A stretch of 64,000 bases of DNA, from positions 372,001 through 436,000 of the forward strand of contig NZ_CP136759.1 of NCBI RefSeq assembly GCF_032931615.1, given 5' to 3'. This document shows, piece after piece, positions 3,862 to 42,011 of this stretch. Both the position numbers and the translations under genes were made by a program. The stretch's first letter is position 1; each line of letters starts with the position of its first letter. The notes beneath the pieces were generated by a model, which worked only from the letters and a program-made list of their open reading frames with translations, was not told the DNA's origin and made no database searches. This DNA comes from Palleronia sp. LCG004 (GTDB lineage Bacteria; Pseudomonadota; Alphaproteobacteria; Rhodobacterales; Rhodobacteraceae).

Positions 3862-5162
3862 GCGCCGTATCCAAGAAGCACGCGGGGCAGGAAGAGGCTG
3901 ATTTCAGGCACGTAGGTCACCACGAAGAGAAGGGTCAGGAGGACGAGATACATCGGGATCAGCGGACGGATCACCTTGGCGATCGAGGTTCCGCCGACGG
4001 AGCAGCCGACGAAGAGGGCCGATCCCACGGGCGGCGTGCAGATGCCGATGCAGAGATTGAAGGTCATCACGATGCCGAAATGGACCGGATCCATGCCGAG
4101 ATCCTGCGTCACGGGCAGGAAGATCGGCGTGAAGATCAGCAGTGCCGGCGTCATGTCCATGAAGGTCCCGACGAGAAGCAGCGTGATGTTGATGGCCAGC
4201 AGGATCGCCAGCGGATTGTCGGAGATGCCCAGCAGCACGTCCGAGATCGCGTTGGGGATCAGTCCGAAGGCCATCGCCCGGCTCATCGCGATGGAGGCCC
4301 CGATCATCAGAAGGACAACCGCCGTCGTTACGGCAGATTCGACGAAGATGGCGGGCAGGTCGCGGACCGTGATCTCGCGATACCAGACGAGCGCGAGGAG
4401 CAGCGCATAGATGACGGCGGCCGCGGCGGCCTCGGTCGCGGTGAAGATGCCGGCGATGATGCCGCCCATGATGACGACGATGAGGCCGAGCGGCAGGATC
4501 GCATCGCGTACGGCGCGAAGAACCTCTCCGGTCGAGGGGCGGTCCGCCACGGGATAGCCGCGACGCTTGGCGATGATGCCCGCGACCGTCATCAACCCAA
4601 GCCCCATGAGGATTCCCGGGACGTATCCCGCGACGAAGAGCGCCGCGATCGAGGTGCCGCCGGTGATCAGGGAATAGACGATGAGCGTGGCCGAGGGCGG
4701 GATCAGCAGACCCGTCGGACAGGAGGCGATGTTGACTGCCGCCGAGAAGCCCCGGTCATACCCCTCGCGGTCCTGGAGCGGTGCCATGACGCCACCCACC
4801 GCCGCAGCCGAGGCGACCGCAGAGCCCGAGATCGCACCGAACATCATGTTGGCGATGACGTTGCAATGCGCCAGTGCGCCGGGCAGGCGGCCTGCAAGCA
4901 CCTTGGCGAGGTTGATGAGACGCATGGCGATGCCGCCGCGGTTCATGATGTTGCCCGCCAGGATGAAGAACGGGATCGCGAGCAGGGTGAAGCTGTCGAG
5001 ACCCGACGCCATCTGCTGCGCGACGATGAAGACCGATTGCTCGACCCCCATGAAGAGGAGGAATGTCAGCGTGGCCGATGTCCCGATCGCGAAGGCGATG
5101 GGCACGCCCAGTGCCATGAGGACGGCGAAACTGCCGAAGAGGACCCAGACAGCGGAGTTCAT
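3858..5162 (-). CDS. TRAP transporter large permease (DctM family)
   Basis: Large membrane subunit of a tripartite ATP-independent periplasmic transporter, 434 aa, normal for DctM. The sequence is a run of about 11-12 hydrophobic helices. It includes the conserved Asn/Gly-rich stretch around FILAGNIMNRGG and a GAISGSAVASAAAVGG segment typical of the family. It uses an ion gradient to move a ligand delivered by the binding protein encoded divergently at 5889. The start has GAGGAT upstream. The small permease stops 10 nt before it and the GH31 gene overlaps its end. The ligand is probably a uronic acid or small uronide, from neighbours only. Confidence 0.93.
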   Translation of the reverse strand: MNSAVWVLFGSFAVLMALGVPIAFAIGTSATLTFLLFMGVEQSVFIVAQQMASGLDSFTLLAIPFFILAGNIMNRGGIAMRLINLAKVLAGRLPGALAHCNVIANMMFGAISGSAVASAAAVGGVMAPLQDREGYDRGFSAAVNIASCPTGLLIPPSATLIVYSLITGGTSIAALFVAGYVPGILMGLGLMTVAGIIAKRRGYPVADRPSTGEVLRAVRDAILPLGLIVVIMGGIIAGIFTATEAAAAAVIYALLLALVWYREITVRDLPAIFVESAVTTAVVLLMIGASIAMSRAMAFGLIPNAISDVLLGISDNPLAILLAINITLLLVGTFMDMTPALLIFTPIFLPVTQDLGMDPVHFGIVMTFNLCIGICTPPVGSALFVGCSVGGTSIAKVIRPLIPMYLVLLTLLFVVTYVPEISLFLPRVLLGYGA

Positions 5163-5172
5163 CGTGATATCC

Positions 5173-5676
5173 TCATTCGAGCGGCATTGAGACGTCGCCC
5201 TCGGCTTCGGGAAGGCGGCCCTGGCCGAGATCCCGTGCGAAGAGCGCGCAGTAATAAAGGATGACGATGCCCGCGAAGGGGATCGCCGCGTAGATCCAGC
5301 CCATCGGCAGGCGCAGGGCGGGTGTGACCTGTCCGGAGCTGAGCGTGCGGCTGACGAGCGACCAGCCGCCCCAGACCATGACGATCGCAGCGAAGCCCGC
5401 GACGATCGAGAGGATCACCCATTCGAGGGCCAGCCGGGCGCGTCCCTTGAGCGCGATCGGCAGCAGGTCGATGGCGAGGTGGCGACGCGCGCCGAACGTG
5501 TATGCCCCGCCGATCAGCGCGAGCCACATGAAGAGGAACCGCGCGATTTCGTCGGTGAGGATGGATGGCGTCTGGAAGACGTAGCGGCTCAGGACCTGCC
5601 ACGTGACGCAGGCGACGAGAATCGCGAAGATCGCGATCACCGCCCAGCGAAGGATCAGGTCGACGGCACCCTTCAC
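5173..5676 (-). CDS. TRAP transporter small permease (DctQ family)
   Basis: Small membrane subunit of the TRAP transporter, 167 aa with the GTG start chosen here; DctQ proteins are usually 150-190 aa. Four hydrophobic helices are visible, with the family pattern WQVLSRYVF after helix 1 and LTDEIARFLFMW before helix 2. The frame is open further upstream, to 5865, but that extension is Arg/Pro-rich, unlike a transporter N-terminus, and runs through the divergent promoter region. The GTG at 5676 is therefore preferred; the start is uncertain. It heads the leftward operon followed by dctM, GH31 and the dehydrogenase. Confidence 0.82.
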   Translation of the reverse strand: MKGAVDLILRWAVIAIFAILVACVTWQVLSRYVFQTPSILTDEIARFLFMWLALIGGAYTFGARRHLAIDLLPIALKGRARLALEWVILSIVAGFAAIVMVWGGWSLVSRTLSSGQVTPALRLPMGWIYAAIPFAGIVILYYCALFARDLGQGRLPEAEGDVSMPLE

Positions 5677-5832
5677 GACCGGACCTGTAACGCCGTCTTG
5701 CGGAAACTCATCGCGAAACCCTTTCCTGATGCGCGGCACCGAAACCTGCGGTCGACCAATCCGCGGACGCGGGAGGTCGTGGCAGCGGCTGCGCGGACAA
5801 ATCCGTGCTGTCCCTTGCCAAACCGTTCGGAA

Positions 5833-5845
5833 TTGGTCAACCAGT
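5833..5845. promoter_or_regulatory. Candidate GntR/UxuR-type operator
   Basis: TGGTCAACCA at 5834-5843 is a perfect palindrome flanked by TT and G. It resembles the FadR-subfamily half-site pattern and the enterobacterial UxuR/ExuR consensus (TTGGTATACCAA core). It sits in the only intergenic space between the two divergent arms of the cluster, 46 nt before the binding-protein start. The FCD-type GntR gene at the end of the rightward arm is the natural ligand-sensing repressor. The palindrome is seen; the binding is inferred. Confidence 0.5.
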
Positions 5846-5888
5846 GCGCATTCGAACACACCCATCCGAATTTTCCCGGGAGGACGAC

Positions 5889-6878
5889 ATGACCGTCACC
5901 AAGACAGCCCTTTTCGGCGCGACCGCGCTCGTCGCCGCCGCCTCGATCGCCGACGCCGCCACCATGCGCCTGAGCCACAACAACCCGCCCGACCACCCCA
6001 CGCATCTGTCGATGCAGGAGATGGCCGATCGCGTCTCCGAGCTCACCGACGGCGAAGTCGAGATCCAGATCTTCCCCAATGGCCAGCTCGGCACGCAGCG
6101 CGAGTCGATGGAGCTCGTGCAGAACTGCGCGCTCGAAATGGCGCGTTCCAACGCCTCCGAACTCGAAGCCTTCGAAGAGAGCTATTCCGCGATCAACCTG
6201 CCCTACATCTTCGACAGCGAAGAGCACTTCAACGAAGTGGTCGCGGGCGAGATCGGGCAGGACATCCTCGCCTCCTCGAGCGATAACGGCTTTCGCGGCG
6301 TGGCTTTCCTGACCGAAGGCGCTCGCTCGTTCTACGGGCAGAAGCCGATCCTGTCGCCCGCCGATCTCGAAGGGGTGCAGGTGCGCGTTCAGCCCTCGCC
6401 TTCGGCGATCCGCATGGTCGAGCTTCTGGGCGGCAGCCCGACGCCGATTTCCTGGGGCGAGCTCTACAGCGCGCTGCAGCAGGGCGTCGTGGACGCGGCC
6501 GAGAACAACCCCACCGCGCTCACGACCGCGCGTCACGGCGAGGTCGTTTCCGACTTCTCCCTCGACGAGCACACGATCATCCCCTCGGTCGTCGTCATCT
6601 CGAACTGCGCTTGGGACGGCATGACGCCCGAGCAGCAGGACGCGATGATGCAGGCCGCCTCCGAAATGCAGGAGGCCCATACGCAGCGCTGGCAGGAAGC
6701 CGCCAACGCCGCGCTCGAGGAAGCGCAGAGCGAGATGGGCGTCGAGATCCACGAGGTCGACAAGGCCCCCTTCGTCGAGGCGGTCCAGCCGATGATCGAG
6801 GAGACGGCTTCGCGGTCCGACAATCTCGCCGACCTGATCGAGCGGATCCGCGCCTCGGGCAGCCAGTCCGGCTCCTGA
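5889..6878 (+). CDS. TRAP transporter solute-binding protein (DctP family)
   Basis: Periplasmic ligand-binding subunit, 329 aa. The ATG at 5889 follows CCCGGGAGGACGAC, a strong ribosome site, and opens a signal peptide ending near ADAA (about residue 22). The DctP-family pattern is visible: a mature N-terminus in beta-strand with HxxP, then GQLGTQRE, then the conserved Arg stretch GVQVRVQ where the carboxylate-binding arginine lies. It heads the rightward arm, 4 nt before the GH2 gene. It captures the substrate for the TRAP permeases encoded divergently. A carboxylated sugar fits both the TRAP mechanism and the neighbouring enzymes, but the ligand is inferred. Confidence 0.92.
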   Translation: MTVTKTALFGATALVAAASIADAATMRLSHNNPPDHPTHLSMQEMADRVSELTDGEVEIQIFPNGQLGTQRESMELVQNCALEMARSNASELEAFEESYSAINLPYIFDSEEHFNEVVAGEIGQDILASSSDNGFRGVAFLTEGARSFYGQKPILSPADLEGVQVRVQPSPSAIRMVELLGGSPTPISWGELYSALQQGVVDAAENNPTALTTARHGEVVSDFSLDEHTIIPSVVVISNCAWDGMTPEQQDAMMQAASEMQEAHTQRWQEAANAALEEAQSEMGVEIHEVDKAPFVEAVQPMIEETASRSDNLADLIERIRASGSQSGS

Positions 6879-6882
6879 CGCG

Positions 6883-8655
6883 ATGCTCGAGCGATCCGAT
6901 CTCGCCGAGAACGCCCTCCAGGCGCTTCACGACGAGGATTACGATCGCCCCTACAACACGCAAGGCCTGAACGCGGAGACCCTGATCTTCGCTGGCGGGC
7001 GGCGGGGGCGATCGCTCGACGGCGACTGGACCTTCTGTGTCGACCTCCTCGATACGGGGCTGAGGCAGAAATGGTTCGCGCTGGAACCCTCCGACCCGGA
7101 GGATCGGATCGAGCCCTGGGATTACGATCCCTACGAGGGCGAGACCGTTCCGGTGCCGTCCTGTTGGCAGATGCTCGAGGAGAAGTGGTACTTCTTCGAA
7201 GGATCTGCCTGGTACGGACGCTGGATCGATCTCGACCCGCATGACGGTCGGCGCTTCCTGCGGATCGGGGCCGCGCAATACGATTGCAAGGTCTTCGTCA
7301 ACGGCCGGTTCCTCGGCAACCATTACGGCGGCTCGACGCCGTTCTGCGTCGAACTGACGGGAGCGGTTTCGCCCGGCCGGAACTTCGTGCTGCTCTGCGT
7401 GAACAATGCGCGCACGCGCGACCGCGTGCCCATGCGCAACACCGACTGGTTCAATTATGGCGGGATCACGCGCGAGGTGACGCTCTACGACACGCCCGCG
7501 ACGGTGATCCGTGATCTTTTCGTGCGGCTCGAGGACGGCCGGATCCGCATTTCGGTGCATGCCGACGGGCCGTCCGACCGGGTCCGCGTCGAGATCCCCG
7601 AACTCGGCATCTCTTCGGAGATCGCTCTGGCCGAAGGGCAGGGCGAGGGCAGCTTTGATGCGGTGCCGGAGCTCTGGTCCCCCGAAACTCCGCGCCTCTA
7701 TGATGTTCGCGCCGAAGCGGGCGGTGACGTGGTGACCGATCGGGTGGGCTTTCGCACGATCGAACGACGGGGGACCGAGATCGTTCTCAACGGCGATGCC
7801 CTCTTCCTGCGCGGTATCTCGGTCCACGAGGACGACGCCGAGACAGGCAAGCTGACATCCGAGGCGGATCTGAGGCGCAGATTCGCCCATGCGGCCGAGC
7901 TCGGCTGCAATTTTCTGAGGCTTGCGCATTATCCCCATCACGAGATGGCCGCGCGGCTCGCCGACGAACTTGGCTTCCTGCTCTGGGAGGAGATCCCGGT
8001 CTATTGGGCGATCGATTTCGCCAATCCCGCGACGCTCAAGGATGCCCGCAACCAGCTCGTCGAACTCATCCGTCGCGACCGCAACCGTGCGAGCGTCGTG
8101 ATCTGGTCGATCGGCAACGAGAATCCCGACACCGACGCCCGGCTCGAGTTCATGCGCGATCTGGCCGAAACCGCCCGAAGCGAGGATCCCACGCGCCTCG
8201 TCGCGGCCGCCTGTCTCGTCAATCACCGCAAGCTCAGGATCGAGGACCGGCTCGCCGCCCATATCGACGTGATCGGCATCAACGAGTATTACGGCTGGTA
8301 CGACGAGGATTTCGACGAACTTGGCGTGATCGGCCGCAATTCCGCGCCCGACCGCCCCGTGGTGATTTCCGAGACCGGGGCGGACGGCGATCACGAGATG
8401 GGGCCCGCACGCGGCCTTTTCTCCCTCGACTACCAGGCAGAGGTCTACCGCAAGCAGATCGCGACCCTGCGCGGCCTCGACTACGTGAAGGGCATTTCTC
8501 CCTGGATCCTCTACGATTTCCGGGTCGAGCGGCGGCAGAACAGGTTTCAGCGAGGGTGGAATCGAAAGGGACTGATCGCGGCCGACAAGACGACCAAAAA
8601 GCCCGCATTCGACATCCTCGCTACCTATTACGCGGAGCGAAAGGCCGGCGGATGA
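6883..8655 (+). CDS. Glycoside hydrolase family 2, beta-glucuronidase-like
   Basis: Retaining beta-glycosidase of GH2, 590 aa, close to the usual beta-glucuronidase length. A jelly-roll sugar-binding domain (about 35-200) and an Ig-like domain (about 200-290) come before the TIM barrel (about 290-590). The acid/base is E413 in WSIGNEN and the nucleophile E497 in VISETGADG. NTDWFNYGGITREV in the first domain is typical of beta-glucuronidases. No signal peptide, so it is cytoplasmic. It should release D-glucuronate from an imported glucuronide, feeding the fructuronate reductase-like enzyme of the other arm. A beta-galactosidase activity is less likely. It overlaps the regulator start by ATGA. 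Confidence 0.88.
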   Translation: MLERSDLAENALQALHDEDYDRPYNTQGLNAETLIFAGGRRGRSLDGDWTFCVDLLDTGLRQKWFALEPSDPEDRIEPWDYDPYEGETVPVPSCWQMLEEKWYFFEGSAWYGRWIDLDPHDGRRFLRIGAAQYDCKVFVNGRFLGNHYGGSTPFCVELTGAVSPGRNFVLLCVNNARTRDRVPMRNTDWFNYGGITREVTLYDTPATVIRDLFVRLEDGRIRISVHADGPSDRVRVEIPELGISSEIALAEGQGEGSFDAVPELWSPETPRLYDVRAEAGGDVVTDRVGFRTIERRGTEIVLNGDALFLRGISVHEDDAETGKLTSEADLRRRFAHAAELGCNFLRLAHYPHHEMAARLADELGFLLWEEIPVYWAIDFANPATLKDARNQLVELIRRDRNRASVVIWSIGNENPDTDARLEFMRDLAETARSEDPTRLVAAACLVNHRKLRIEDRLAAHIDVIGINEYYGWYDEDFDELGVIGRNSAPDRPVVISETGADGDHEMGPARGLFSLDYQAEVYRKQIATLRGLDYVKGISPWILYDFRVERRQNRFQRGWNRKGLIAADKTTKKPAFDILATYYAERKAGG

Positions 8656-9380
8656 GCGCGCGGCGCTATGGAGAGGTCGCGGCACAGATCCGCGATCTCG
8701 TCGCGCGTGAGGGGATCGAGCCCGGGGGGCGATTGATGCCCGAACGGGCGCTGTCGGTACGGCTCGACGTTTCCCGTTCGATCATTCGCGAGGCGATCGT
8801 CCTGCTCGAGATCGAGGGCCTTGTCGAGGTGCGACGCGGATCGGGGATCTATCTCGGCGATCCGGGTGCGACTGCGAGCCTGCCAGAGCCCGACGATATC
8901 GGGCCGTTCGAACTCCTGCAGGCGCGCCAGATCCTCGAAGCTGAGATCGCGGGCTTTGCGGCACGCATGGTCACCAAGGCCGATATCGACCGCATGCGTG
9001 CGACGCTCGAGGGCGAGCGCCTGTCACTGGCGAATGGCGACGGGGATTACGCGGGCGACCGAGCTTTTCATCGTCAGGTTGCCGAGGCCACTCAGAACTC
9101 CGTGCTGGTCGATATGGTCGAGGACCTCTGGCGCAAGAGGGAGCAGAGCTCGATCTGGGCGGGACTGCACCGGCGGATCTTCGAAACGGATTACCGTGCG
9201 GATTGGCTCGACGATCACCAGGCCATCCTTGATGCGCTGAGGGCCCGGAACGAGCGCGCGGCACGATCGGCGATGTGGCGTCATCTTGGCAACGTGCGGG
9301 ATAGGTTGATGACGCTGTCGGATGTCGAGGATCCGCGCTTCGACGGGTACCTGTTCGACGACGTGCCCCTGAAGCCCTGA
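8652..9380 (+). CDS. GntR family regulator, FadR/FCD subfamily
   Basis: DNA-binding regulator of 242 aa. An N-terminal winged helix holds the GntR signature (residues about 20-70, SRSIIREAIVLLEIEGLVEVRRGSG region read in parts). An all-helical FCD ligand-binding domain follows (about 85-225), with the D..FH..H metal/ligand pattern visible as DRAFHRQV. The frame is open far upstream, but the ATG in the ATGA overlap with the GH2 stop gives a normal GntR length. Its position at the end of the glucuronide arm, and the TGGTCAACCA palindrome between the arms, point to control of both operons by a uronic-acid intermediate. Confidence 0.9.
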   Translation: MSARRYGEVAAQIRDLVAREGIEPGGRLMPERALSVRLDVSRSIIREAIVLLEIEGLVEVRRGSGIYLGDPGATASLPEPDDIGPFELLQARQILEAEIAGFAARMVTKADIDRMRATLEGERLSLANGDGDYAGDRAFHRQVAEATQNSVLVDMVEDLWRKREQSSIWAGLHRRIFETDYRADWLDDHQAILDALRARNERAARSAMWRHLGNVRDRLMTLSDVEDPRFDGYLFDDVPLKP

Positions 9381-9658
9381 ATCCAAGCCGTTTTCCGCCT
9401 ATTCCACTTGATGAAGCTTGGGTATGCGCGCCGATCTGCCGGCCTCGGCCGAAGATCGCTGGCGAGAGGGTCCCCAGATACACGGTCACATCCTGTTAAC
9501 CAAAAAGATGCTAGCCGTGGCCTCGCCTGGGCGGCAAAACCTTGCCTAGGCTGTTTGCAGGCCAGTTTTCGACCGATTAACGGTCCCAATTCAGGGGCAC
9601 CGGGACCGGTTCCCGACGAAACGAACTGGCGAATCTCGCCGGGAAATGGAGCATTCTC

Positions 9659-12600
9659 TTGATTGACATCTCGAAGGCAGCCGGGCGGATCGACGTCACG
9701 GCAGGGCGCGTCACGACGTTCGATCTGGGCGGCAGCGTTTCCGCCGTGACCGCGCAACCGGAATCAGGCAACGTGACGATCAACCCTGACGGGACCCTCT
9801 CGCTGGTCCTGGCCGACAAGGATTTCCGGGGCCACACCGACTTTTCGGTAACGCTCGGCGAAGGGGCCGATGCGGAGCAGGTCGATGTCCTGATCCGCGC
9901 CAAGGCGGGTCCCCAGGCGAACGGTTGGGGCGAGGGCGATCATTACATGCTCGCGGTGGACGACGAAGACGATGTCGTCGTCGAGCCGGGCGAGAACCAC
10001 CGCAAGATCTACGTTTCCGAAAGCGACGATGCGCTGAGCCGGTCCGATATCGCCGCGCGCGAAGGAATCTCCGAGGGCGACATCAACGCCAAATGGCTCG
10101 AAGCGCACCCCGAATACGGCGCGAGCGAGGACATGGCGCTCAAGACCGATCTCGGGATGTCGCTCTGGTATTCGACGACGGACAAGAGGGCGGACCCGAC
10201 CTCGAACTGGCTCCTCTTCGAGCGAGGCTATGAGTACGACGATACCGGTCGGTTGATCGGTCGGGATTCGGACGGGGAATCGGATATTCACCCCCTCTAT
10301 GTCGGCGCGTGGGGTGAAGGCGAGAAACCCGTTCTCGGGGACCGTGTGCATATCTGGCAGGATCCGAGTCAGAACGTGGTCGTACAGGGACTGGAGATCG
10401 ACGGCGCACGCGTCATGAAGGGCGGGAATCTGCTGTTCGATGACGTGACATTCGACGGAAGCCAGGTGACCATTCAGGGTCTTTTCGGCGCAATCGACGG
10501 TGCGACGCTCCACGGAACCACGATCATCGACGCGACGAATGGCGGGCGGACAAGCGGCTTCTACGGCGAGAACATCGATGGACTTCTCATCGATAAAGTC
10601 TTCGCCGACCGGAACGGATGGTCCCCGGGATACGAGACCGGCGACGGCGATGCACCCCGGATGCAGAACCACAACATCTATATCCAGACCGGTGTCGAGG
10701 ACGTGACCTTTCGCGACAGCATCTCGATGAGAGGAAGCTCTTTCGGTGCGCAGTTCAGATCCGGTGCGGTGATCGAAGGAAGTGCTTTCGTCGACAACAA
10801 CGTCGCCTTCAACACCAGTGGTGGACAATACGACAACCGTGGGCACAACGACAATTATTCGCTCGTCCTCGACAATATCGTGACATCCGCCGGCAACAAG
10901 CCGGGAGCCGGAGCGCGCGATTGGGGCATCGAGGATTACGCGCGCTGGACAAGCTACGTGGGCAACATCATTGCGCATATGGCCGACCCCGCCGATCCCG
11001 AGGATCGGGCCAGCAAGACCGATGGACGACACGACCCCCACACGATCCGCTACGACGACGCATTCGCGGACGACACGCTGATCTACAACTGGATCAGCGA
11101 CCGCTTCCGGGATTCGCCCCGCCACGACCACGATCAGAACCTCCCCGATATCGATCCGGCCGAACTCGACGAGGTCACGATCAGGCGCTTCGTCGAGAAC
11201 GAGCTGGGCGTAAGCAATCCCGACGATCCGATCGACATCCTCGCAACGTTCCTTCGCGCGAACTGGGGGCAGATCGAGGCGAGCGACGTCGTCGACTTCT
11301 TCCAGAAGGGTTTCGGCAAGGACGTCTCGGTCATCGACGGCCCGCAGGATCTGCGTTTCGTCCCGGACGAGCGGGGTGAGGGCTTCCGTTGGGACAACCG
11401 GCTGAACTGGACGAGCGAGGAACTGCCCCAGAGCGGCGATAGCGTCGATCTTGCCGGCAACTGGGTCACCTATGCCGGTACCAACCGTCTGCAGTCGCTC
11501 GATCTCGGCGATGGCGGCAGGTTGACCGTTCGTCAGGGGCTTCTCGAGGTCGCGGACCTCGAAGGTGGCGTGAACAGCGCGATCGAGATCGGTCGGGCAG
11601 GTCAGCTCTGGACCGATGGGTATGACGGCGAAAAGCGTATCGACGTCTCGCAGGACGGCGGACGGTTCGCGAACTTCGGGACCGTCGAGGGTGGCCTCGA
11701 TCTCGCCGTATCGAGTGGTGAGGCGATCCTTGCCACCGGTGGGGCCAAGTTCGAAGTCGATGGTGGCCTGCAGATCACCGGCGATCGCGCGAAGATCGGG
11801 TTCGACGGTCAGGGCGGCGGTGTCGCTTCGCTGTCGCTCGCCGACGGTGCGGTGCTGCAATTCGAGGCTGCACGGTCCGGCTTTTCGACCATTGCGGAAT
11901 TCCGCAGCGGTCACTGGGGAACGCGCGCGAGCGATGTCGTTTCGTCGGTCGATCTCGGATCGGCCGATACCTGGCTCGTCGTCGATTTCGCGGATCTCCG
12001 GTCAAGCGGCCGGTTCGATCTCGTCGAGGTTGACGAACTCGTCGGAGGGTTCGGAACAATCGAGGTCGACGGTGCGTCCGGCATCTCTGTGTGGATCGAC
12101 TATGCCGAGGACCGGCTTCAGGTCGCGAAGGGTGGAAACACTCTGACCCTCGTCGGCAGCGATGCCTCCGATGTCTTCGTGGCAGCCGACGGAATCGAGG
12201 TCAGGATCGAGGAGTATTCCTCGAACGACCGGCTCGACCTGACGGCGGTGATGGATGGACGCGACCTTTCGGATCTTCGTCTCGCGCAGTCGGACGGCGA
12301 GACGGCGATCGTCGATGCGGCGGGCGATGCGATCGCGACGTTCGGCGACGCGGTCGGGACGGTTCATCTGGTCGACGACGGCACTCGCGTCACCCTGAAG
12401 GGAGACACCAATTCCGGACCGATCGATCCGAAGCCGGAACCCCAGCCTGAACCGGAGCAACCCGAGCCGGAGCCCGAACCCGAGAAGCCCGAACCCCAGC
12501 CCGAACCCGAGAAGCCCGAACCCCAGCCCGAACCCGAGAAGCCCGAACCCCAGCCCGAGCCCGAGAAGCCCGAGCCCCAGCCCGAACCGGAAAAGCCGCA

Positions 12601-13015
12601 GCCACAGCCCGAGCCCGAAATGCCGGACCAAGGCGATGGCGGTCCGATCGACTGGAACGTGATCGAAGGGTCGTCGAGGCCCTACCAGAACCTTGCCGGC
12701 ACGGATGGCAGTGATGCGATCCGGGCGAATGGGGGGCGTCTGAACCAGATCACCGGCGGTGACGGTGCAGATGCGTTCATCTTCGGGTCCAGGGTGGCCG
12801 ACAATGTTCAGACCATGTCGGTCGTCAACGATTTCGATGTTTCGGAGGACATGGTCGTGATCGAGCAGGGGGCACAGATCGTCAGCCAGCGGATGCATGG
12901 CGACACGATGTGGATCGGCTTGAAGGGCGATTCCGACATGATCGCTCTCCAGGGCGACGACCTGTCGGTCGATACCGTCAAGATCGTCCACGACGACGCT
13001 CACTGGATCGGGTAA
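9659..13015 (+). CDS. Large secreted beta-helix protein with Pro-Glu repeat and RTX-like C-terminus
   Basis: A 1118-aa protein without a signal peptide. Residues about 220-410 read as a right-handed parallel beta-helix (repeated short beta-strands, Asn/Gly turns). A second beta-rich region follows (about 560-830), then a low-complexity Pro/Glu/Gln linker (about 925-988). The Asp/Gly-rich tail has GTDGSDAI and GGDGADAFIFG, resembling RTX calcium-binding repeats. Lack of a leader plus this tail implies type I secretion. The start is TTG with GGAG 7 nt upstream; no ATG is near. Beta-helix folds are common in polysaccharide lyases and epimerases, and the gene adjoins a uronide cluster, but no catalytic motif was recognised. 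Confidence 0.8.
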   Translation: MIDISKAAGRIDVTAGRVTTFDLGGSVSAVTAQPESGNVTINPDGTLSLVLADKDFRGHTDFSVTLGEGADAEQVDVLIRAKAGPQANGWGEGDHYMLAVDDEDDVVVEPGENHRKIYVSESDDALSRSDIAAREGISEGDINAKWLEAHPEYGASEDMALKTDLGMSLWYSTTDKRADPTSNWLLFERGYEYDDTGRLIGRDSDGESDIHPLYVGAWGEGEKPVLGDRVHIWQDPSQNVVVQGLEIDGARVMKGGNLLFDDVTFDGSQVTIQGLFGAIDGATLHGTTIIDATNGGRTSGFYGENIDGLLIDKVFADRNGWSPGYETGDGDAPRMQNHNIYIQTGVEDVTFRDSISMRGSSFGAQFRSGAVIEGSAFVDNNVAFNTSGGQYDNRGHNDNYSLVLDNIVTSAGNKPGAGARDWGIEDYARWTSYVGNIIAHMADPADPEDRASKTDGRHDPHTIRYDDAFADDTLIYNWISDRFRDSPRHDHDQNLPDIDPAELDEVTIRRFVENELGVSNPDDPIDILATFLRANWGQIEASDVVDFFQKGFGKDVSVIDGPQDLRFVPDERGEGFRWDNRLNWTSEELPQSGDSVDLAGNWVTYAGTNRLQSLDLGDGGRLTVRQGLLEVADLEGGVNSAIEIGRAGQLWTDGYDGEKRIDVSQDGGRFANFGTVEGGLDLAVSSGEAILATGGAKFEVDGGLQITGDRAKIGFDGQGGGVASLSLADGAVLQFEAARSGFSTIAEFRSGHWGTRASDVVSSVDLGSADTWLVVDFADLRSSGRFDLVEVDELVGGFGTIEVDGASGISVWIDYAEDRLQVAKGGNTLTLVGSDASDVFVAADGIEVRIEEYSSNDRLDLTAVMDGRDLSDLRLAQSDGETAIVDAAGDAIATFGDAVGTVHLVDDGTRVTLKGDTNSGPIDPKPEPQPEPEQPEPEPEPEKPEPQPEPEKPEPQPEPEKPEPQPEPEKPEPQPEPEKPQPQPEPEMPDQGDGGPIDWNVIEGSSRPYQNLAGTDGSDAIRANGGRLNQITGGDGADAFIFGSRVADNVQTMSVVNDFDVSEDMVVIEQGAQIVSQRMHGDTMWIGLKGDSDMIALQGDDLSVDTVKIVHDDAHWIG
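12430..12624 (+). repeat. In-frame tandem repeat encoding PEKPEPQPE units
   Basis: A near-perfect 27-nt unit, encoding nine residues such as PEKPEPQPE, recurs about five times inside the secreted beta-helix gene. Shorter PEPEQ/PEPEP variants stand before it. The translated segment is an acidic, extended polyproline-type linker between the beta-rich body and the RTX-like tail. Such repeats change copy number easily by slippage. Confidence 0.85.
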
Positions 13016-13061
13016 GCACTTCGGTTCAGGTTGAAAATCGAAAGACGATCGGAAGATCCAA

Positions 13062-13093
13062 GCCCGCCGGCGAATACCGGCGGGCTTTTTTTG
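13062..13093 (+). terminator. Rho-independent terminator after the secreted beta-helix gene
   Basis: AGCCCGCCGG at 13062-13071 pairs perfectly with CCGGCGGGCT at 13078-13087 across a 6-nt loop. Seven T residues follow (13087-13093). It is 46 nt after the stop codon and is the most canonical terminator in the window. Confidence 0.93.
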
Positions 13094-13172
13094 TAATGGT
13101 GATCAGCTACGGAGCGATTCAGCCACGAACACCTGACCATGCCGGGTCACCGTCCCCCGCCGATTAAATGGG

Positions 13173-15200
<2,028 letters not shown>

Positions 15201-37354: not shown

Positions 37355-37861
37355 AGACCGTCCGGGCCCCGCCGCATCTTCGGGGCAGGGCGTAGTCAGT
37401 CGCGCTGACCCGGGCTCCTCGCAAGATCCCGAGAACCTCTCGGTCCGCCTTCCGTCCCTTGATCCGTCGGTATTTATTGCAAGGCGAGGAAAAAGCCGGA
37501 GACCTTCGCATATCCCGAAGGCAACGTCCGGCACCCGATCAAGCAACGACCCACATGCCACTCGGAATCTCGCGCGAGGATATAGGCGCTGATGGATCCC
37601 GACGGCGCACGCGGGTCACAGGGAAAGAAGGGTGGCGGAGACGAAGGGAGACTACGCCAAATTTCCCAACTATCTGACTTTACTCAGGAATACGGGTGAA
37701 ACGATGTCCATTTAGCGAGTAGCCCACGTTGGACAACACCATGATGGGTGCAGCTGCGCAACGCCTCTCTTGCGGCACATGGCAGTCGTTGCGGGCGGGG
37801 GCCTTGGTCGGTTAGCTCGACGAGGAGTTGCCGCAAAGCGGCGGAGGTGAGGGAGATTGCA
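37355..37861. other. Non-coding junction between chromosome and integrative element
   Basis: The first 278 bp are chromosomal flank after the LuxR-type gene. They contain a weak GCCCCG/CGGGGC hairpin at about 37366-37387 and no convincing gene. At 37633 the 17-bp attachment repeat begins, and the rest lies inside the element. The sequence becomes visibly less GC-rich there, with more TTT/AAA runs than the flanks. Confidence 0.6.
37633..37649. repeat. attL: 17-bp direct repeat of the tRNA-Ser 3' end
   Basis: TGGCGGAGACGAAGGGA is identical to 41922-41938, the 3' terminal 17 nt of tRNA-Ser (read on the minus strand, including the encoded CCA). It marks the left end of the inserted element. Confidence 0.9.
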
Positions 37862-38182
37862 GTGTATGACGATGGCACCGGAGGGGGCCTTTCCGCAGGA
37901 GGGGCAATCCTCCTCTTGTCTATCGGGATTTACGTGACGATCCTCTGGCAGGCAGGAAAGGCGTTGGAACGGCACGGCTACGCTCTTGCAGGAACCCGGC
38001 TATGCACGATCTCCGTGTCTTCCGTTCTGATGGGCTTCATGGGCGGACTGGCAGGGGGTGCCTTCATTGTCTTGGTCTTGGGTGGCTATTCCAACCCCGC
38101 TGCTATGCGCGTGCATTGGCTCGCGATCTTTATCGGCTGGGCGAAGGGCGTCCTCGACGGCTGGCGCAAGCCTATCTCCTGA
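37862..38182 (+). CDS. Small membrane protein of the element
   Basis: A 106-aa protein with a GTG start preceded by GGGAG at 7 nt. Two hydrophobic segments are visible (about 13-32 and 50-76, the second Gly-rich), then an amphipathic end (WAKGVLDGWRKPIS). The frame is open further upstream, but that part is Arg/Ser-rich and unlikely. No family was recognised. Small Gly-rich two-helix proteins in phage-derived elements can be holins, but nothing here proves it. Confidence 0.45.
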   Translation: MYDDGTGGGLSAGGAILLLSIGIYVTILWQAGKALERHGYALAGTRLCTISVSSVLMGFMGGLAGGAFIVLVLGGYSNPAAMRVHWLAIFIGWAKGVLDGWRKPIS

Positions 38183-38427
38183 CTTTCCTTAAGGTCCCAC
38201 CATTGAAGGGAGAACCGTGAGGATGACGTGGTGATGACGGCCATCGGGCAATGCCAAGGCGTCCTCAGTCTCTCTCTTGCTGGTCCTGAGTGCGTCCTCG
38301 GGGTTGCCCTCCGGGGTGGCCTCGGGGGCGGTTATGGGTGGCCTCTGGGGGTATCACCTTAGAGGCGCATCATTAATGCAACCTGACGAAAGGCCAGAAG
38401 CAGCCACTCGAAAGGACCAGACCCAGA

Positions 38428-39276
38428 ATGACGAAGACGAACCAGACACTTAGACCCGGCGCTGGAATGAAGCACCGGAAGTGCAGCCTATCCGAAATCC
38501 GTACCGACCCAGCACGTTTCCAGTTCCGGGGGCCGGGGCTCTGTAGTGAGCACGTGAGAGAGATGGCAGACGCGGTTAAGCGGGGCGATACGCTGGAACC
38601 GCCGACCATCTGGCGTGACCCCGGAGACGGGCAGCTCTACGTGATCGCAGGCCACCATAGGCTCCAAGCGTACACAGCGGCTAAGCGTACCGGCAAGATC
38701 CCGGTCATTGAGTTCGCGGGGGAGTACCGGGACGCGCAGCTCTACGCGGTCAAGTCGAACAGGAACAACAAGCTCCACTTCACATCGGTCGAGAGGTCTG
38801 ACGCAACGTGGAGGCTGGTGCGGGCGTGGGATCCTGAGCTGGGCACAGACGGCCACACGTTCTCCATCGCAGAGATTACCAAAAGCGCCGGAAGCACTAA
38901 GCCGACCGTGAACCGGATGCGTAAGGCGATGGCCGACGCCTATCGGGAGGACGGCACCACGCCCGACATGCTTCCCGAAACTTGGGGTGACATGCGCTTG
39001 CGGCGGAGAGAGCAGGCGCTGGACGCGGATGGCTGGGAATGTGATCGGGATGCGGAAGAAGCGCACAGCGAGGAGGTGGACCGGATATACGGCCAGCTCA
39101 ACCAGACCATGCATCAGGAACGCCACAGGAACCCAAGAGCCCTTGGACACGCGATCAAGCGTTGCCTTGGCTCGGACACGTACATGGTTCTCGACTGGGT
39201 GAGAGAGGCGAACGACGGCTATGCGGACGAAGACCTAGAGGGATCTGACGACGAGGCGGCAGCCTTCCCATTCTGA
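38428..39276 (+). CDS. ParB/Srx-domain protein without ParA
   Basis: A 282-aa protein. Residues about 18-110 form a ParB/sulfiredoxin-type domain, with SLSEI at the start and AGHHRLQAY as the nucleotide-binding loop corresponding to the ParB GERR/GxxR box. A helix-turn-helix follows (about 150-175, IAEITKSAGSTKPTVNRM). The C-terminal 100 residues are acidic and helical. No ParA gene is near, so chromosome-style partitioning is unlikely. Related solo proteins in phages and plasmids act as regulators or nucleases. It is the largest intact cargo gene of the element, and its codon use differs from the flanking genes. Confidence 0.78.
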   Translation: MTKTNQTLRPGAGMKHRKCSLSEIRTDPARFQFRGPGLCSEHVREMADAVKRGDTLEPPTIWRDPGDGQLYVIAGHHRLQAYTAAKRTGKIPVIEFAGEYRDAQLYAVKSNRNNKLHFTSVERSDATWRLVRAWDPELGTDGHTFSIAEITKSAGSTKPTVNRMRKAMADAYREDGTTPDMLPETWGDMRLRRREQALDADGWECDRDAEEAHSEEVDRIYGQLNQTMHQERHRNPRALGHAIKRCLGSDTYMVLDWVREANDGYADEDLEGSDDEAAAFPF

Positions 39277-39401
39277 GCCCCGCAGGTCCTCATGGGACCC
39301 ACGGAGGTTTTCACCGCAGATATCTGAGCGCCTTATCATAAGAGCGGCCAAGAGCGCGTTCCCCCCATGCCTTTGCTGGGGGTGGAGGGGAGGCTTCCTC
39401 A

Positions 39402-39584
39402 TCACCTCGGCAGGTGCTGGCCCGGTGCCAGATACAGCGAGCCGCAGCGACCGACCGACAGGCGCAGCTCACTGCCCAGCGCGGCCGACAGACGTTCGAG
39501 GTATGGAGAGCTACGCTCGCGGCACGGGTCGTCGGGAGCGTAGGTCAGGGTCGACTTGATCGGGAAGGGAAGGCGGATCAACAT
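39402..39584 (-). CDS. Possible small protein in the element
   Basis: A 60-codon frame opening MLIRLPFPIK with GAGGA about 7 nt before the ATG. It has mixed charged and hydrophobic residues and no low-complexity bias, so it may be real. No family was recognised. It lies between the ParB-like gene and the recombinase, on the opposite strand to both. Confidence 0.3.
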   Translation of the reverse strand: MLIRLPFPIKSTLTYAPDDPCRERSSPYLERLSAALGSELRLSVGRCGSLYLAPGQHLPR

Positions 39585-39711
39585 GGGAAGTCCTCGCGGT
39601 CTGATTGGTCGCAAGGTCTTGGTATCAATGCCACTTTGCATAGATCGCCTTGCTCTCACGAATACCGCTTCTCTGCCTGTCTGGCAACAGGAGGTCCCAT
39701 CCATCCGTTAG

Positions 39712-39825
39712 GGTATACCTCTACGGACAGCCGGACGAGAGAGGAAATGGGTGTCCGTAGGGGTTGATTTCCATCATCGGAGAGGTATCTCTACGGACAG
39801 TACCCTATAGGACACCGGAGGTATC
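39712..39825. promoter_or_regulatory. Two inverted-repeat sites upstream of the serine recombinase (candidate res/operator)
   Basis: CTCTACGGACAG occurs at 39719-39730 and again at 39789-39800. An inverted, near-matching copy (GTGTCCGTAGGGG) lies at 39751-39763 and a weaker inverted copy (GGACACCGGAGGTATC) at 39810-39825. This makes two dimer-type sites, each an inverted pair, ending right at the recombinase start codon. That is the geometry of resolvase subsites that also act as autoregulatory operators. Confidence 0.55.
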
Positions 39826-40473
39826 ATGTCCCGGACCATCTTCTATGCCCGCGTTAGCACCGCCGACCAATCCCTCAACCTCCAGCGCACCCAAGCCGAG
39901 AAAGCAGGCTTCGAGATCGACGAGGTGGTGGCGGACCATGGAGTGTCCGGGGTCAGCACGAAGCTGGCGGAACGTCCCGAGGGAAAGCGGCTCTTCGACA
40001 AGCTGCGCCGGGGTGACGTCCTCGTGGTGCGTTGGGTCGACCGGCTGGGGCGGGACTATCAGGACGTGACGGACACGATCCGAAATCTCATGCGACAGGG
40101 CGTCGTGGTGAAGACGGTCATCAACGGCATGGTCTTCGACGGTGCCACCGAAGACCCTGTCCAGCAGGCTGTGAGAGACGCTCTCATAGGCTTCATGGCC
40201 GCGACGGCACAGGCACAGGCGGAAGCTACAAAAGCCGCTCAGAGGGCCGGTATAGACGCCGCCAAGAGCGATCCTAAGAGATACCGTGGGAAGAAGCCGA
40301 GCTATGACCAGCGCGGACTTGAGCAAGTGCAGTCGATGACCGCTTCAGGGTCAGGGACAAGCGAGATCGCCAAGGCCACGGGTCTTTCTCGGCAGACGGT
40401 CCTGAGGATCAAGGTAGACCCTGCGGCAGCTCAAGCGGCGCTGGAACGGTGGAGCGTATCAGAAGGCCCGTAG
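39826..40473 (+). CDS. Serine recombinase (resolvase/invertase family)
   Basis: A 215-aa site-specific recombinase. The catalytic serine is S11 in YARVSTADQ, with the conserved R-R pair in VRWVDRLGRD. A long helix joins the catalytic domain to a C-terminal helix-turn-helix (about 170-200, TSEIAKATGLSRQTVLRI). It is a small resolvase/invertase, not a large phage serine integrase. Its 3' end overlaps the integrase 3' end by 15 bp on the other strand. It could resolve dimers of the excised element or invert a segment; no second set of sites was seen in the window. Confidence 0.93.
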   Translation: MSRTIFYARVSTADQSLNLQRTQAEKAGFEIDEVVADHGVSGVSTKLAERPEGKRLFDKLRRGDVLVVRWVDRLGRDYQDVTDTIRNLMRQGVVVKTVINGMVFDGATEDPVQQAVRDALIGFMAATAQAQAEATKAAQRAGIDAAKSDPKRYRGKKPSYDQRGLEQVQSMTASGSGTSEIAKATGLSRQTVLRIKVDPAAAQAALERWSVSEGP

Positions 40474-41890
40474 GAACCCTTGAGCCTCAAGCTGGCTCCA
40501 GACCGCCTCCTGTGTCTGAGCAAGCTGTTCCTTCAGGAGCCCATGGTCATAGACCGTGCTGGAGGTGCGGGGGCCAGCCCACCCGCCGATGTCGTGGATG
40601 TCGCCTTCTGGAACCCGAGCTTGCCGAGCGACGGTGCGCCACGTGTGGCGGGTCGAATGGAGGGAGAGCCGCTTGTCGGTCTCGCCACCTAGGACCTGAC
40701 GACGAAACCGCGTGAACCACTGCGAAATCGCATAGACCTTACCGACCGAAGGCCGGATCGGCCAGTCCGGGAACAGGGGGCCACTTTCCCCGTGCTCCAC
40801 AAGGCGGCGGGACATGATCGGCCACGCGCCTTCGGGGATCGGGACGTATCGCCTTGCGTTGCGAGACTTTCCTTCCGCCAGATTTATCCCTTCGGCGTCA
40901 TCTTCGAGGTCTTGAGTTTTCACCATCGCCAGCTCGTCGACACGACACCCAGTGACCAGCGCCAAACGAAGCAGATCGCCCTCCCGTGTTCCGCGCGGCG
41001 CTGCGGATAGGATTGCCGAGACCTCTTGTGCTGTGAAGTCTTCGCGCCGAGGCGCTTCATCGCTCCGGGCGCGGGGTGTTAGCTGCGTGAAGACCCACGG
41101 ATCGCGATAGCGCTGGGCCGTCAGGTTGCGGTCGATTGCCCAGACCCAGATCGCTTTCAGCAGGGTGACGTTCTTGTTGACCGTTCCAGAGGAAAGCCCG
41201 TTCGGGGCACGTGGAGACTTGGCTGCGGGGAGGTACACGTCGCGGAAACGCCGGGCTAGATGCGGCGTCACGTCTTCGAGACAGGCAGCCTCGGCAGGGT
41301 CTTCGAGAAAGGCATGGAGGTGCTTGACCGCCGTTTCCGTGTTCATGACGGTTTTCCGCTTGATGGGCTTGAAGCCTCGACGATTGCCGGGAGCGCGTTC
41401 CTCGAAGTACTGGAGCGACAGCCCGCTGGAGGGGGAAGCCGCGACCATAGGCGACTTTGCCGAACCTCTTGAGCTTCACTGGGTCGACACCGCGTTCCTC
41501 AGCGGCCTCCAGCTTGTCCCCGAGAACCATAGAGACACCGCCGCGACCGTCCTCGGCATCGTCCTTTGCGATCACCTGTTGCCACTCGTCGGCCCGCTCA
41601 AGCGAGAACTGTCCTTCGTCGCTTTCCTCCATGGACCGGCGGCGGATCTCGCCCAGCGCTATGTCCCGGCGTTTCCGTGCCTCGATGAGGTTCCGGGTCC
41701 CGAGCCCCTTCCGTATCTCTTTGCCGAACGGCTGACCGGTCCACGGGTTCGGGAGCCCCACAAGGTCAGGGGGTGTAACCATCCTGAAGACCCAGCCGGT
41801 GCCGGGGCCGCGAGGTTGCTTGAGATAATCCATGTCGTCAGCCTTGCGCGTGTGGTCCATCATGGACAACGGCTTGCTGAACATCATCAT
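40459..41890 (-). pseudogene. Tyrosine integrase split by a frameshift
   Basis: The N-terminal frame (from about 41890) has a DUF6538-like arm-binding region (GWVFRMVTPPDL, GLGTRNLIEARKRRD). It runs out of register near 41410-41435. The other frame takes over with QYFEERAPGN, a core-binding domain, and a complete catalytic domain: R in TGCRVDE, H-x2-R-H in HSTRHTW and the tyrosine in STVYDHG. Joining them needs a +1 shift, i.e. removal of one base. The C-terminal half has no good start of its own. A real mutation, a sequencing error or programmed shifting are all possible; loss of function is the simplest. ATG at 41833 is an alternative start. Confidence 0.82.
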
Positions 41891-41921
41891 TTCCTGAGCT
41901 AAATCAGTAGCTTGAGGATAA

Positions 41922-41938
41922 TGGCGGAGACGAAGGGA
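41922..41938. repeat. attR: 17-bp direct repeat within tRNA-Ser
   Basis: Identical to 37633-37649. It forms the 3' terminal 17 nt of the intact tRNA-Ser gene, so integration kept the tRNA functional. Confidence 0.9.
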
Positions 41939-42011
41939 TTCGAACCCTCGAGACGGTTTCCCGCCTACTCCCTTAGCAGGGGAGCGCCTTCGACCACTCG
42001 GCCACATCTCC
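41922..42011 (-). tRNA. tRNA-Ser (anticodon GCT)
   Basis: A 90-nt class II tRNA with a long variable arm. The acceptor GGAGATG pairs with CGTCTCC, discriminator G, and CCA is encoded. The D-arm has TGGCCGAGTGG, the anticodon loop CTGCTAA gives GCT, and the T-arm GGTTCGAATCC. Its 3' end is the insertion site of the 4.3-kb element. Confidence 0.97.

Follow-up and report, generated by a model that had tools for sequence, protein, structure and literature searches.

A tRNA-targeted element in Palleronia

Palleronia sp. LCG004 (Rhodobacteraceae) carries 4.3 kb of foreign DNA in its tRNA-Ser(GCT) gene, at positions 37633 to 41938 of the 64,000-nucleotide stretch analyzed here (contig NZ_CP136759.1, positions 372,001 to 436,000), referred to below as the window. 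Both ends of this element are formed by a perfect 17-bp repeat. The distal attachment (att) copy, at the end away from the tRNA gene, lies at 37633 to 37649 on the plus strand, and the proximal copy at 41922 to 41938 is the 3′ end of the tRNA gene itself, which lies at 41922 to 42011 on the minus strand. The 17-mer has exactly two copies in the 3.87-Mb genome, where about 0.0005 further copies would be expected by chance. The GC content of the element is 61.4%, compared to 66.2% for the window. A tyrosine integrase gene adjoins the tRNA gene with its 5′ end facing it, and the tRNA 3′ end is duplicated at the far end, the arrangement of a tRNA-targeted integrative element.

Between the repeats lie genes for a small membrane protein of 106 amino acids (37862 to 38182, plus strand), a ParB-like protein of 282 amino acids (38428 to 39276, plus strand), a small serine recombinase of the resolvase type with 215 amino acids, here named Rec (39826 to 40473, plus strand), and the integrase (40459 to 41890, minus strand), which is spread over two open frames. 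The membrane protein, the only cargo-like gene, has two to three hydrophobic segments and gave no family match, the 144-amino-acid version of its open reading frame (ORF) being included in the scans, and no homolog in 225 loci fetched for comparison. Among the Pfam, PHROG, and NCBIfam matches of the element ORFs tested there were no structural, packaging, relaxase, type IV secretion, or replication genes, the exception being a weak PHROG portal-family stretch (3.7e-05) inside the ParB-like domain. By these gene classes the element is not a prophage, an integrative and conjugative element (ICE), or an integrative and mobilizable element.

An earlier account of this DNA made from its letters alone (the sequence-only reading) had described a compact tRNA element, fixed at both ends by the 17-bp repeat, that held a membrane protein, a ParB-like protein, a serine recombinase with its own sites, and an integrase, and that lacked structural, conjugation, and replication genes. 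The exact repeat and the profile searches bear this description out, including its view of the gene set as neither phage-like nor conjugative, and the same set recurs in relatives; only the integrase departs from the description, being frameshifted.

Recurrence of the gene set in Rec-marked elements

A scan of named genomes confirmed 364 loci with Rec, of which the best 80 were surveyed (fetched loci are numbered with the prefix L). Nearly all of the 80 are from Rhodobacterales or Rhizobiales, with exceptions that include a metagenome-assembled genome labelled Chlamydiae. An exact tRNA repeat of 14 to 37 bp brackets Rec in 32 of the 80 loci, or 32 of the 46 that have any tRNA gene in the fetched stretch; one Rec locus has a nonbracketing tRNA repeat. 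Target tRNAs in the family are Ser, Leu, Val, Thr, Ala, Cys, Gly, Gln, Met, Tyr, and Arg. Together with six elements from a first survey, the bracketed loci give 38 delimited elements of 3.7 to 12.8 kb, with a median of about 7.5 kb. An integrase is present in 35 of them and in two more (L184 and L186) its ORF crosses the boundary used, while a ParB-like gene is present in 23, with only pieces in L141 and L197. As Rec was the starting point of the survey, all 38 have it, the L036 copy being a distant resolvase. Among 295 same-family genomes, 15 have Rec at an E value of ≤1e-40, but only 2 of 385 genomes of a class-wide draw have it at ≤1e-50, the Palleronia genome being counted in both.

The closest relative in place and content is an element of Roseobacter sp. 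MED193 (L145), which occupies tRNA-Ser(GCT), is 4.7 kb long, and encodes an integrase, a ParB-like protein, and Rec. The same three genes also lie together at tRNA-Ser in L131 and L196 (both CGA) and in L153 (TGA). The sequence-only reading had proposed looking for the ParB-recombinase pair next to tRNA-Ser in other Rhodobacterales, and these four loci supply it. The idea that the window element is a lone oddity was rejected, as the gene set recurs among Rec loci. For two pairs of elements (L172/L197 and L129/L184), stretches with the integrase and Rec are shared at 83 to 89% DNA identity with no other stretch listed at limits of 80% identity and 80 bp, and modules thus appear to be exchanged between elements.

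The Palleronia genome holds further elements of this kind. A second one, 4.7 kb long with the same plan, occupies tRNA-Ser(TGA) at 2.27 Mb in tandem with another (L036, G000:C1:2262000-2280000, positions 6102 to 15130; att copies, 6102, 10795, and 15113). Of this pair, the first encodes an integrase, another resolvase, a ParB-like protein, and a membrane protein, and the second an integrase and a 366-amino-acid protein. A third element at tRNA-Cys (L035, G000:C1:1018000-1036000, positions 3020 to 11910) carries genes for the reverse transcriptase Drt8 and a Pol I-like protein, and its Rec is 72% identical to that of the window; the att repeat of this element is split into exact runs of 12 bp and 11 bp and is not one long run.

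The integrase of the window copy (Pfam match, 2.3e-13) was compared to 35 integrases, 34 from delimited elements plus that of L034. Eight matched it at an E value of ≤1e-10, and seven of these eight align in two different frames, with a break between approximately 41405 and 41417. The relatives' integrases keep one open frame. Because of this frameshift, the window copy is suggested to be unable to move by itself, and it is probably stuck unless an integrase is supplied in trans. The frameshift and the tiny cargo would also fit decay of a larger prophage, ICE, or island to a remnant in which these genes were kept by chance. That explanation is disfavored and very improbable, given that relatives of similar size, at this tRNA or at others, keep their integrase intact and encode the same classes of genes, among them the 4.7-kb elements at the same tRNA in MED193 and at tRNA-Ser(TGA) in the Palleronia genome. 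As the relatives are small too, the window element does not look like what is left of a much larger one.

Away from the element, two overlapping tRNA predictions (one Arg and one unassigned) lie at window positions 12472 to 12618 on the minus strand.

Rec and its res-like site

Rec matches Pfam Resolvase (4.1e-26) plus HTH_7, and its nearest relatives in the PDB are the Sin/Tn552-type and gamma-delta/Tn3 resolvases. Just upstream of the gene, on the plus strand, is an array of three res-like subsites: subsite I at approximately 39703 to 39730, with a dyad around TATA, subsite II at approximately 39752 to 39784, and subsite III at approximately 39792 to 39814. The three-part array recurs upstream of Rec among 17 sequences compared, apart from L086 and L088, where it is not clear. 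Of the 80 surveyed loci, 37 have the heptamer GGGTATA in the 130 bp before Rec, where 0.19 would be expected; in 36 of the 37 it lies at −112 to −118, and the consensus of the 37 loci and the window contains all three res-like parts. The window element thus has a small serine recombinase with clustered upstream subsites, as in resolvase-res systems, and a Rec homolog with a three-part site inside a tRNA-bracketed element, the combination that marks the family. Because this recurring site lies just upstream of the gene, Rec and its res-like site are most likely a multimer resolution system.

Rec could in principle be a DNA invertase that switches a segment of the element, as its top PHROG is "DNA invertase" and invertases also match in the PDB. 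Those PDB matches are weaker than the best ones, which are of the resolvase type, and relatives whose neighboring genes differ keep the three clustered subsites just before the gene, with nearly constant spacing. Among the element repeats listed there is also no second full inverted crossover site, and an invertase role is improbable.

The ParB-like protein and its flanking DNA

The ParB-like protein has a ParB/KorB/Noc N-terminal domain, a helix-turn-helix (HTH), and a helical C terminus. It matches the PHROG "ParB-like partition protein" (2.1e-18); a Pfam scan of the ORF returned no family at an E value of ≤0.1, PF02195 being its precomputed label. The structural model (pLDDT, 86) has fold matches to ParB-CDP, Noc, and RK2 KorB (E values of about 1e-6, TM-scores of 0.3 to 0.5), and a profile search also matches Noc and ParB. 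Against a set of 5.8 billion proteins, the protein as a single query found only itself and an alignment query found five, itself included; the single window protein gave no match in a scan of genome contigs, and the alignment found three loci in a scan of viral contigs.

The likeness to KorB, Noc, and ParB lies in the shared N-terminal domain and HTH fold. The canonical motif of ParB-type proteins is of the GERR type, whereas the window protein has a GHHR motif, and it also differs in the C terminus of its model. No ParA partner was seen among the Pfam, PHROG, and NCBIfam matches of the element ORFs tested, and the window contains no parS-like 16-mer, even with up to three mismatches allowed; a classical ParABS partition system was rejected on these grounds. 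The sequence-only reading had cast the ParB-like protein as the element's effector. An effector or defense role was likewise rejected, as the protein has no PADLOC match and, because ParB-like genes are present in 23 of the 38 elements while other genes vary, it looks like part of the backbone.

DNA on both sides of the ParB-like gene is far more similar between the first two Palleronia elements than the gene products are. The upstream piece (38191 to 38327, plus strand) is 94% identical over 137 bp to G000:C1:2271526-2271662, at the same position in the second element, and the downstream piece (39273 to 39385, plus strand) is 87% identical over about 112 bp, while the ParB proteins are only 32 to 34% identical. 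The upstream piece has no comparable match elsewhere in 295 genomes, the matches in 30 other genomes being no longer than about 55 bp; the downstream piece has two copies within the Palleronia genome. MED193 also has two elements with a ParB leader 89% identical over 201 bp and ParB proteins 62% identical. It is possible that these conserved flanks are regulatory, replication, or packaging sites. RNA predicted from the leader (38185 to 38427) folds strongly (z score, −3.39), and corresponding z scores in relatives are −3.87 in L145, −1.43 in L153, and −0.45 in L030. No Rfam family reached its gathering score in the ParB leader, where the sole overlap was a subthreshold ffh-sRNA match (E value, 3.6). 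Several elements have a short CCACCATT-type motif in common upstream of ParB, with no long alignable RNA.

RNase HI and Pol I-like genes in relatives

Seven elements encode RNase HI (PDB RNase HI, 1.8e-50), and all seven have ParB. The RNase HI gene is just upstream of ParB in five (L157:7859-8464, L168:7870-8361, L181:4406-4954, L182:8750-9259, and L197:9828-10397), just downstream in L082 (6693-7214), and apart from it in L191 (7755-8285). A second group of proteins, about 500 amino acids long, is encoded by five elements without ParB (L035:6539-8047, in the Palleronia genome, L135:5061-6512, L144:7955-9319, L173:8278-9801, and L180:4314-5828). These proteins had no PDB match by sequence, and a Pfam scan of the L035 member returned none. 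Among the matches listed for a fold search with the model (pLDDT, 66, the C-terminal part being modelled best) are enzymes of the Pol I family (Taq/Klenow type), with a best E value of 1.5e-6 and a TM-score of about 0.3. For the ParB-like protein and its ALTERNATIVES, the counts are 23 of 38 elements with ParB-like, 5 of 38 with Pol I-like, and no overlap (P = 0.006). Because the two never co-occur, this pattern suggests that both serve a free, replicating stage.

Such a stage would be central if these elements were integrative plasmids, in which the excised circle replicates with host factors (RNA primed, with aid from RNase HI or the Pol I-like protein), ParB helps to segregate the circle or to control its copy number, Rec resolves dimers, and transformation or mobilization provides transfer. 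RNase HI next to ParB in six elements and the Pol I-like protein in five fit this explanation, as do the plasmid-type function of Rec-res and the strongly folded ParB leader in the window and L145, although the fold is not significant in L030 and is weak in L153. Rec is also found on two small plasmids of M. nodulans, pMNOD06 and pMNOD07 (L120 and L121; 9.8 and 12.6 kb), which have a close Rec relative, in two pieces in pMNOD07, and are annotated with a DUF5906-domain protein or a primase-polymerase. Rec-like genes were present on only 8 of 72,556 plasmid records, however, and M. nodulans accounts for three of these. In addition, the window copy has no recognized replication gene, and no circular copy was found. 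On balance the integrative-plasmid explanation is possible, with the odds somewhat against it.

Variable cargo and defense genes

Cargo was scanned with PADLOC using 40 proteins from 32 elements (a single protein in 27 of the 32), with 10 flanking genes as the control. The set includes L034, L040, and the two L036 elements, which have other resolvases or none, and L031, which is not repeat delimited. At an E value of ≤1e-5, 21 of 40 element proteins and 1 of 10 flanking genes matched (p = 0.016). At ≤1e-10 the figures were 13 of 40 and 1 of 10, a difference that is not significant (p = 0.15), so that the broad enrichment is suggestive; the strength lies in specific calls.

A match at ≤1e-10 was present in 12 of the 32 elements. 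Among the specific calls, type IIG restriction enzymes were found in L031, L080, and L185, Drt8 in L035 (9.1e-162), DSR2 in L157 (1.9e-130), HerA plus a methyltransferase in L084, methyltransferases in L078 and L184, and a caspase-like protein in L182. In L082, AriA is encoded beside a DUF4435 protein, which we take to be a PARIS pair. Cargo not typical of defense also occurs, such as GtrA and a glycosyltransferase in L079. By these annotations, the variable slot of Rec-marked elements often includes a defense gene. The window element had no PADLOC match among the five ORFs scanned (ParB, Rec, the C-terminal part of the integrase, the membrane ORF, and a 100-amino-acid ORF).

Interpretation of the element

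We put at roughly 0.7 the probability that the window element is a minimal, probably immobilized member of a family of small, nonconjugative integrative elements of Rhodobacterales and Rhizobiales. The att duplication, the gene content, the Rec site, the recurrence of the family, and the variability of its cargo are all read from sequence. In the cycle proposed for the family, the integrase would excise a circle and insert it at the tRNA, and Rec acting at its res site would resolve multimers, whether of the element after excision or of an incoming copy, into monomers. Binding of the ParB-like protein to the element, perhaps in the manner of the CTP-dependent clamps KorB and Noc, would govern how the circle is expressed or maintained. 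The genes for RNase HI and the Pol I-like protein that relatives carry may point to limited self-replication. Movement from cell to cell would need a helper, such as a phage, a conjugative element, or natural transformation; for the window element, helper dependence is plausible because its architecture resembles that of the Vibrio PICMIs.

Several observations weigh against assigning the window element to such a family. No tRNA repeat was detected in 48 of the 80 Rec loci, 34 of which have no tRNA in the fetched stretch (some are cut by contig ends) and 14 of which have a tRNA and no repeat; these loci may use other sites or may not be such elements. The exact res heptamer is not present in 43 of the 80, and L086 and L088 have no clear three-part array. 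Ten of the 38 delimited elements have neither ParB nor the Pol I-like polymerase, the excess of defense matches in the cargo is not significant at the stricter E value, and no integrase match was found on the two small M. nodulans plasmids. For the window copy, no empty site was found, its left flank having no counterpart in 13 other genomes of the genus except for one 37-bp match, and the integrase frameshift could be a sequencing or assembly error.

If the helper were a phage, the element would be a phage satellite. A helper phage would induce excision, replication and packaging of the element would follow, possibly in concatemeric form like that of the Vibrio PICMIs, and Rec-res would cut the delivered concatemer to monomers before integration. 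Small size, fixed-site chromosomal integration, a minimal gene set, and cargo types (restriction-modification [RM], DRT, and PARIS) parallel those of the PICMIs (PMC10803314), and the recurrence of Rec with a res site would fit concatemer delivery. A ParB-like gene near a terminase gene is reported for phages in another study (PMC6536676). We nevertheless consider this explanation doubtful. The element has no DNA match in 50,697 phage records, Rec has no match in them at an E value of ≤1e-20, neither AlpA nor a DUF5906 primase, which help to define some satellites, exceeded the cutoff in the genome, and a repeat check of 14 of the 24 viral loci showed no tandem copies.

A bolder version extends to the whole family and would make Rec-marked elements undescribed minimalist phage satellites of Alphaproteobacteria. 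They would travel as concatemers in unmodified helper capsids, be resolved to monomer circles by Rec-res, replicate from RNA primers (with ParB, leader RNA, and RNase HI or with a private Pol I-like polymerase), insert at a tRNA, and carry a swappable defense system, the near-identical DNA flanking ParB being a shared packaging or replication signal. This proposal is speculative, and we hold it to be unlikely as a whole.

Small tRNA islands without transfer genes can carry antiphage systems, and in Rhodobacterales and Rhizobiales such islands can be searched for by Rec with its res-like site. A multimeric, replicating free stage is suggested by the recurrence of the resolvase and by the way ParB, alone or with RNase HI, is interchanged with the Pol I-like protein. 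New defense genes could be sought in the variable slot.

Comparison with known systems

Searches of open-access literature listed no description of the Rec-marked family and no satellite family for Rhodobacterales and Rhizobiales. The nearest system, the PICMIs of Vibrionaceae, are elements of about 6 kb defined by Int, AlpA, a primase (DUF5906/DUF3987), and insertion at fis (PMC10803314). Rec-marked elements are similarly small, sit at a fixed site, and have few core proteins, no capsid-remodelling genes, and accessory RM, DRT, or PARIS cargo. They differ in their tRNA sites and in having Rec-res plus ParB or a Pol I-like protein; "resolvase" and "ParB" have no occurrences in the main text of the PICMI paper (PMC10803314). 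The window element is not a PICMI, as its site is tRNA-Ser and AlpA and DUF5906 gave no match above the cutoff across the genome (DUF3987 was not searched genome-wide).

Resolvase-bearing transposons offer a second comparison. As in Tn3/gamma-delta and Sin/Tn552, a small serine recombinase has a multisubsite region just upstream, a likeness of layout. In contrast to those systems, no transposase was found in the window element, and Rec is attached to a tRNA-specific integrase.

The tmRNA-inserted islands I23, I44, and I55 of Pseudomonas, one of which is transduced by a jumbo phage, share with Rec-marked elements a tyrosine integrase, an RNA gene as the target, direct repeats, defense systems, and the lack of transfer genes (PMC12595487); in the paper on these islands, "ParB" and "serine recombinase" do not occur. 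Those islands have in common a region of about 18 kb and AlpA, whereas Rec-marked elements are 3.7 to 12.8 kb long and have Rec-res in common. Rec-marked elements would fall within a known kind, the defense-carrying, transfer-deficient tRNA islands.

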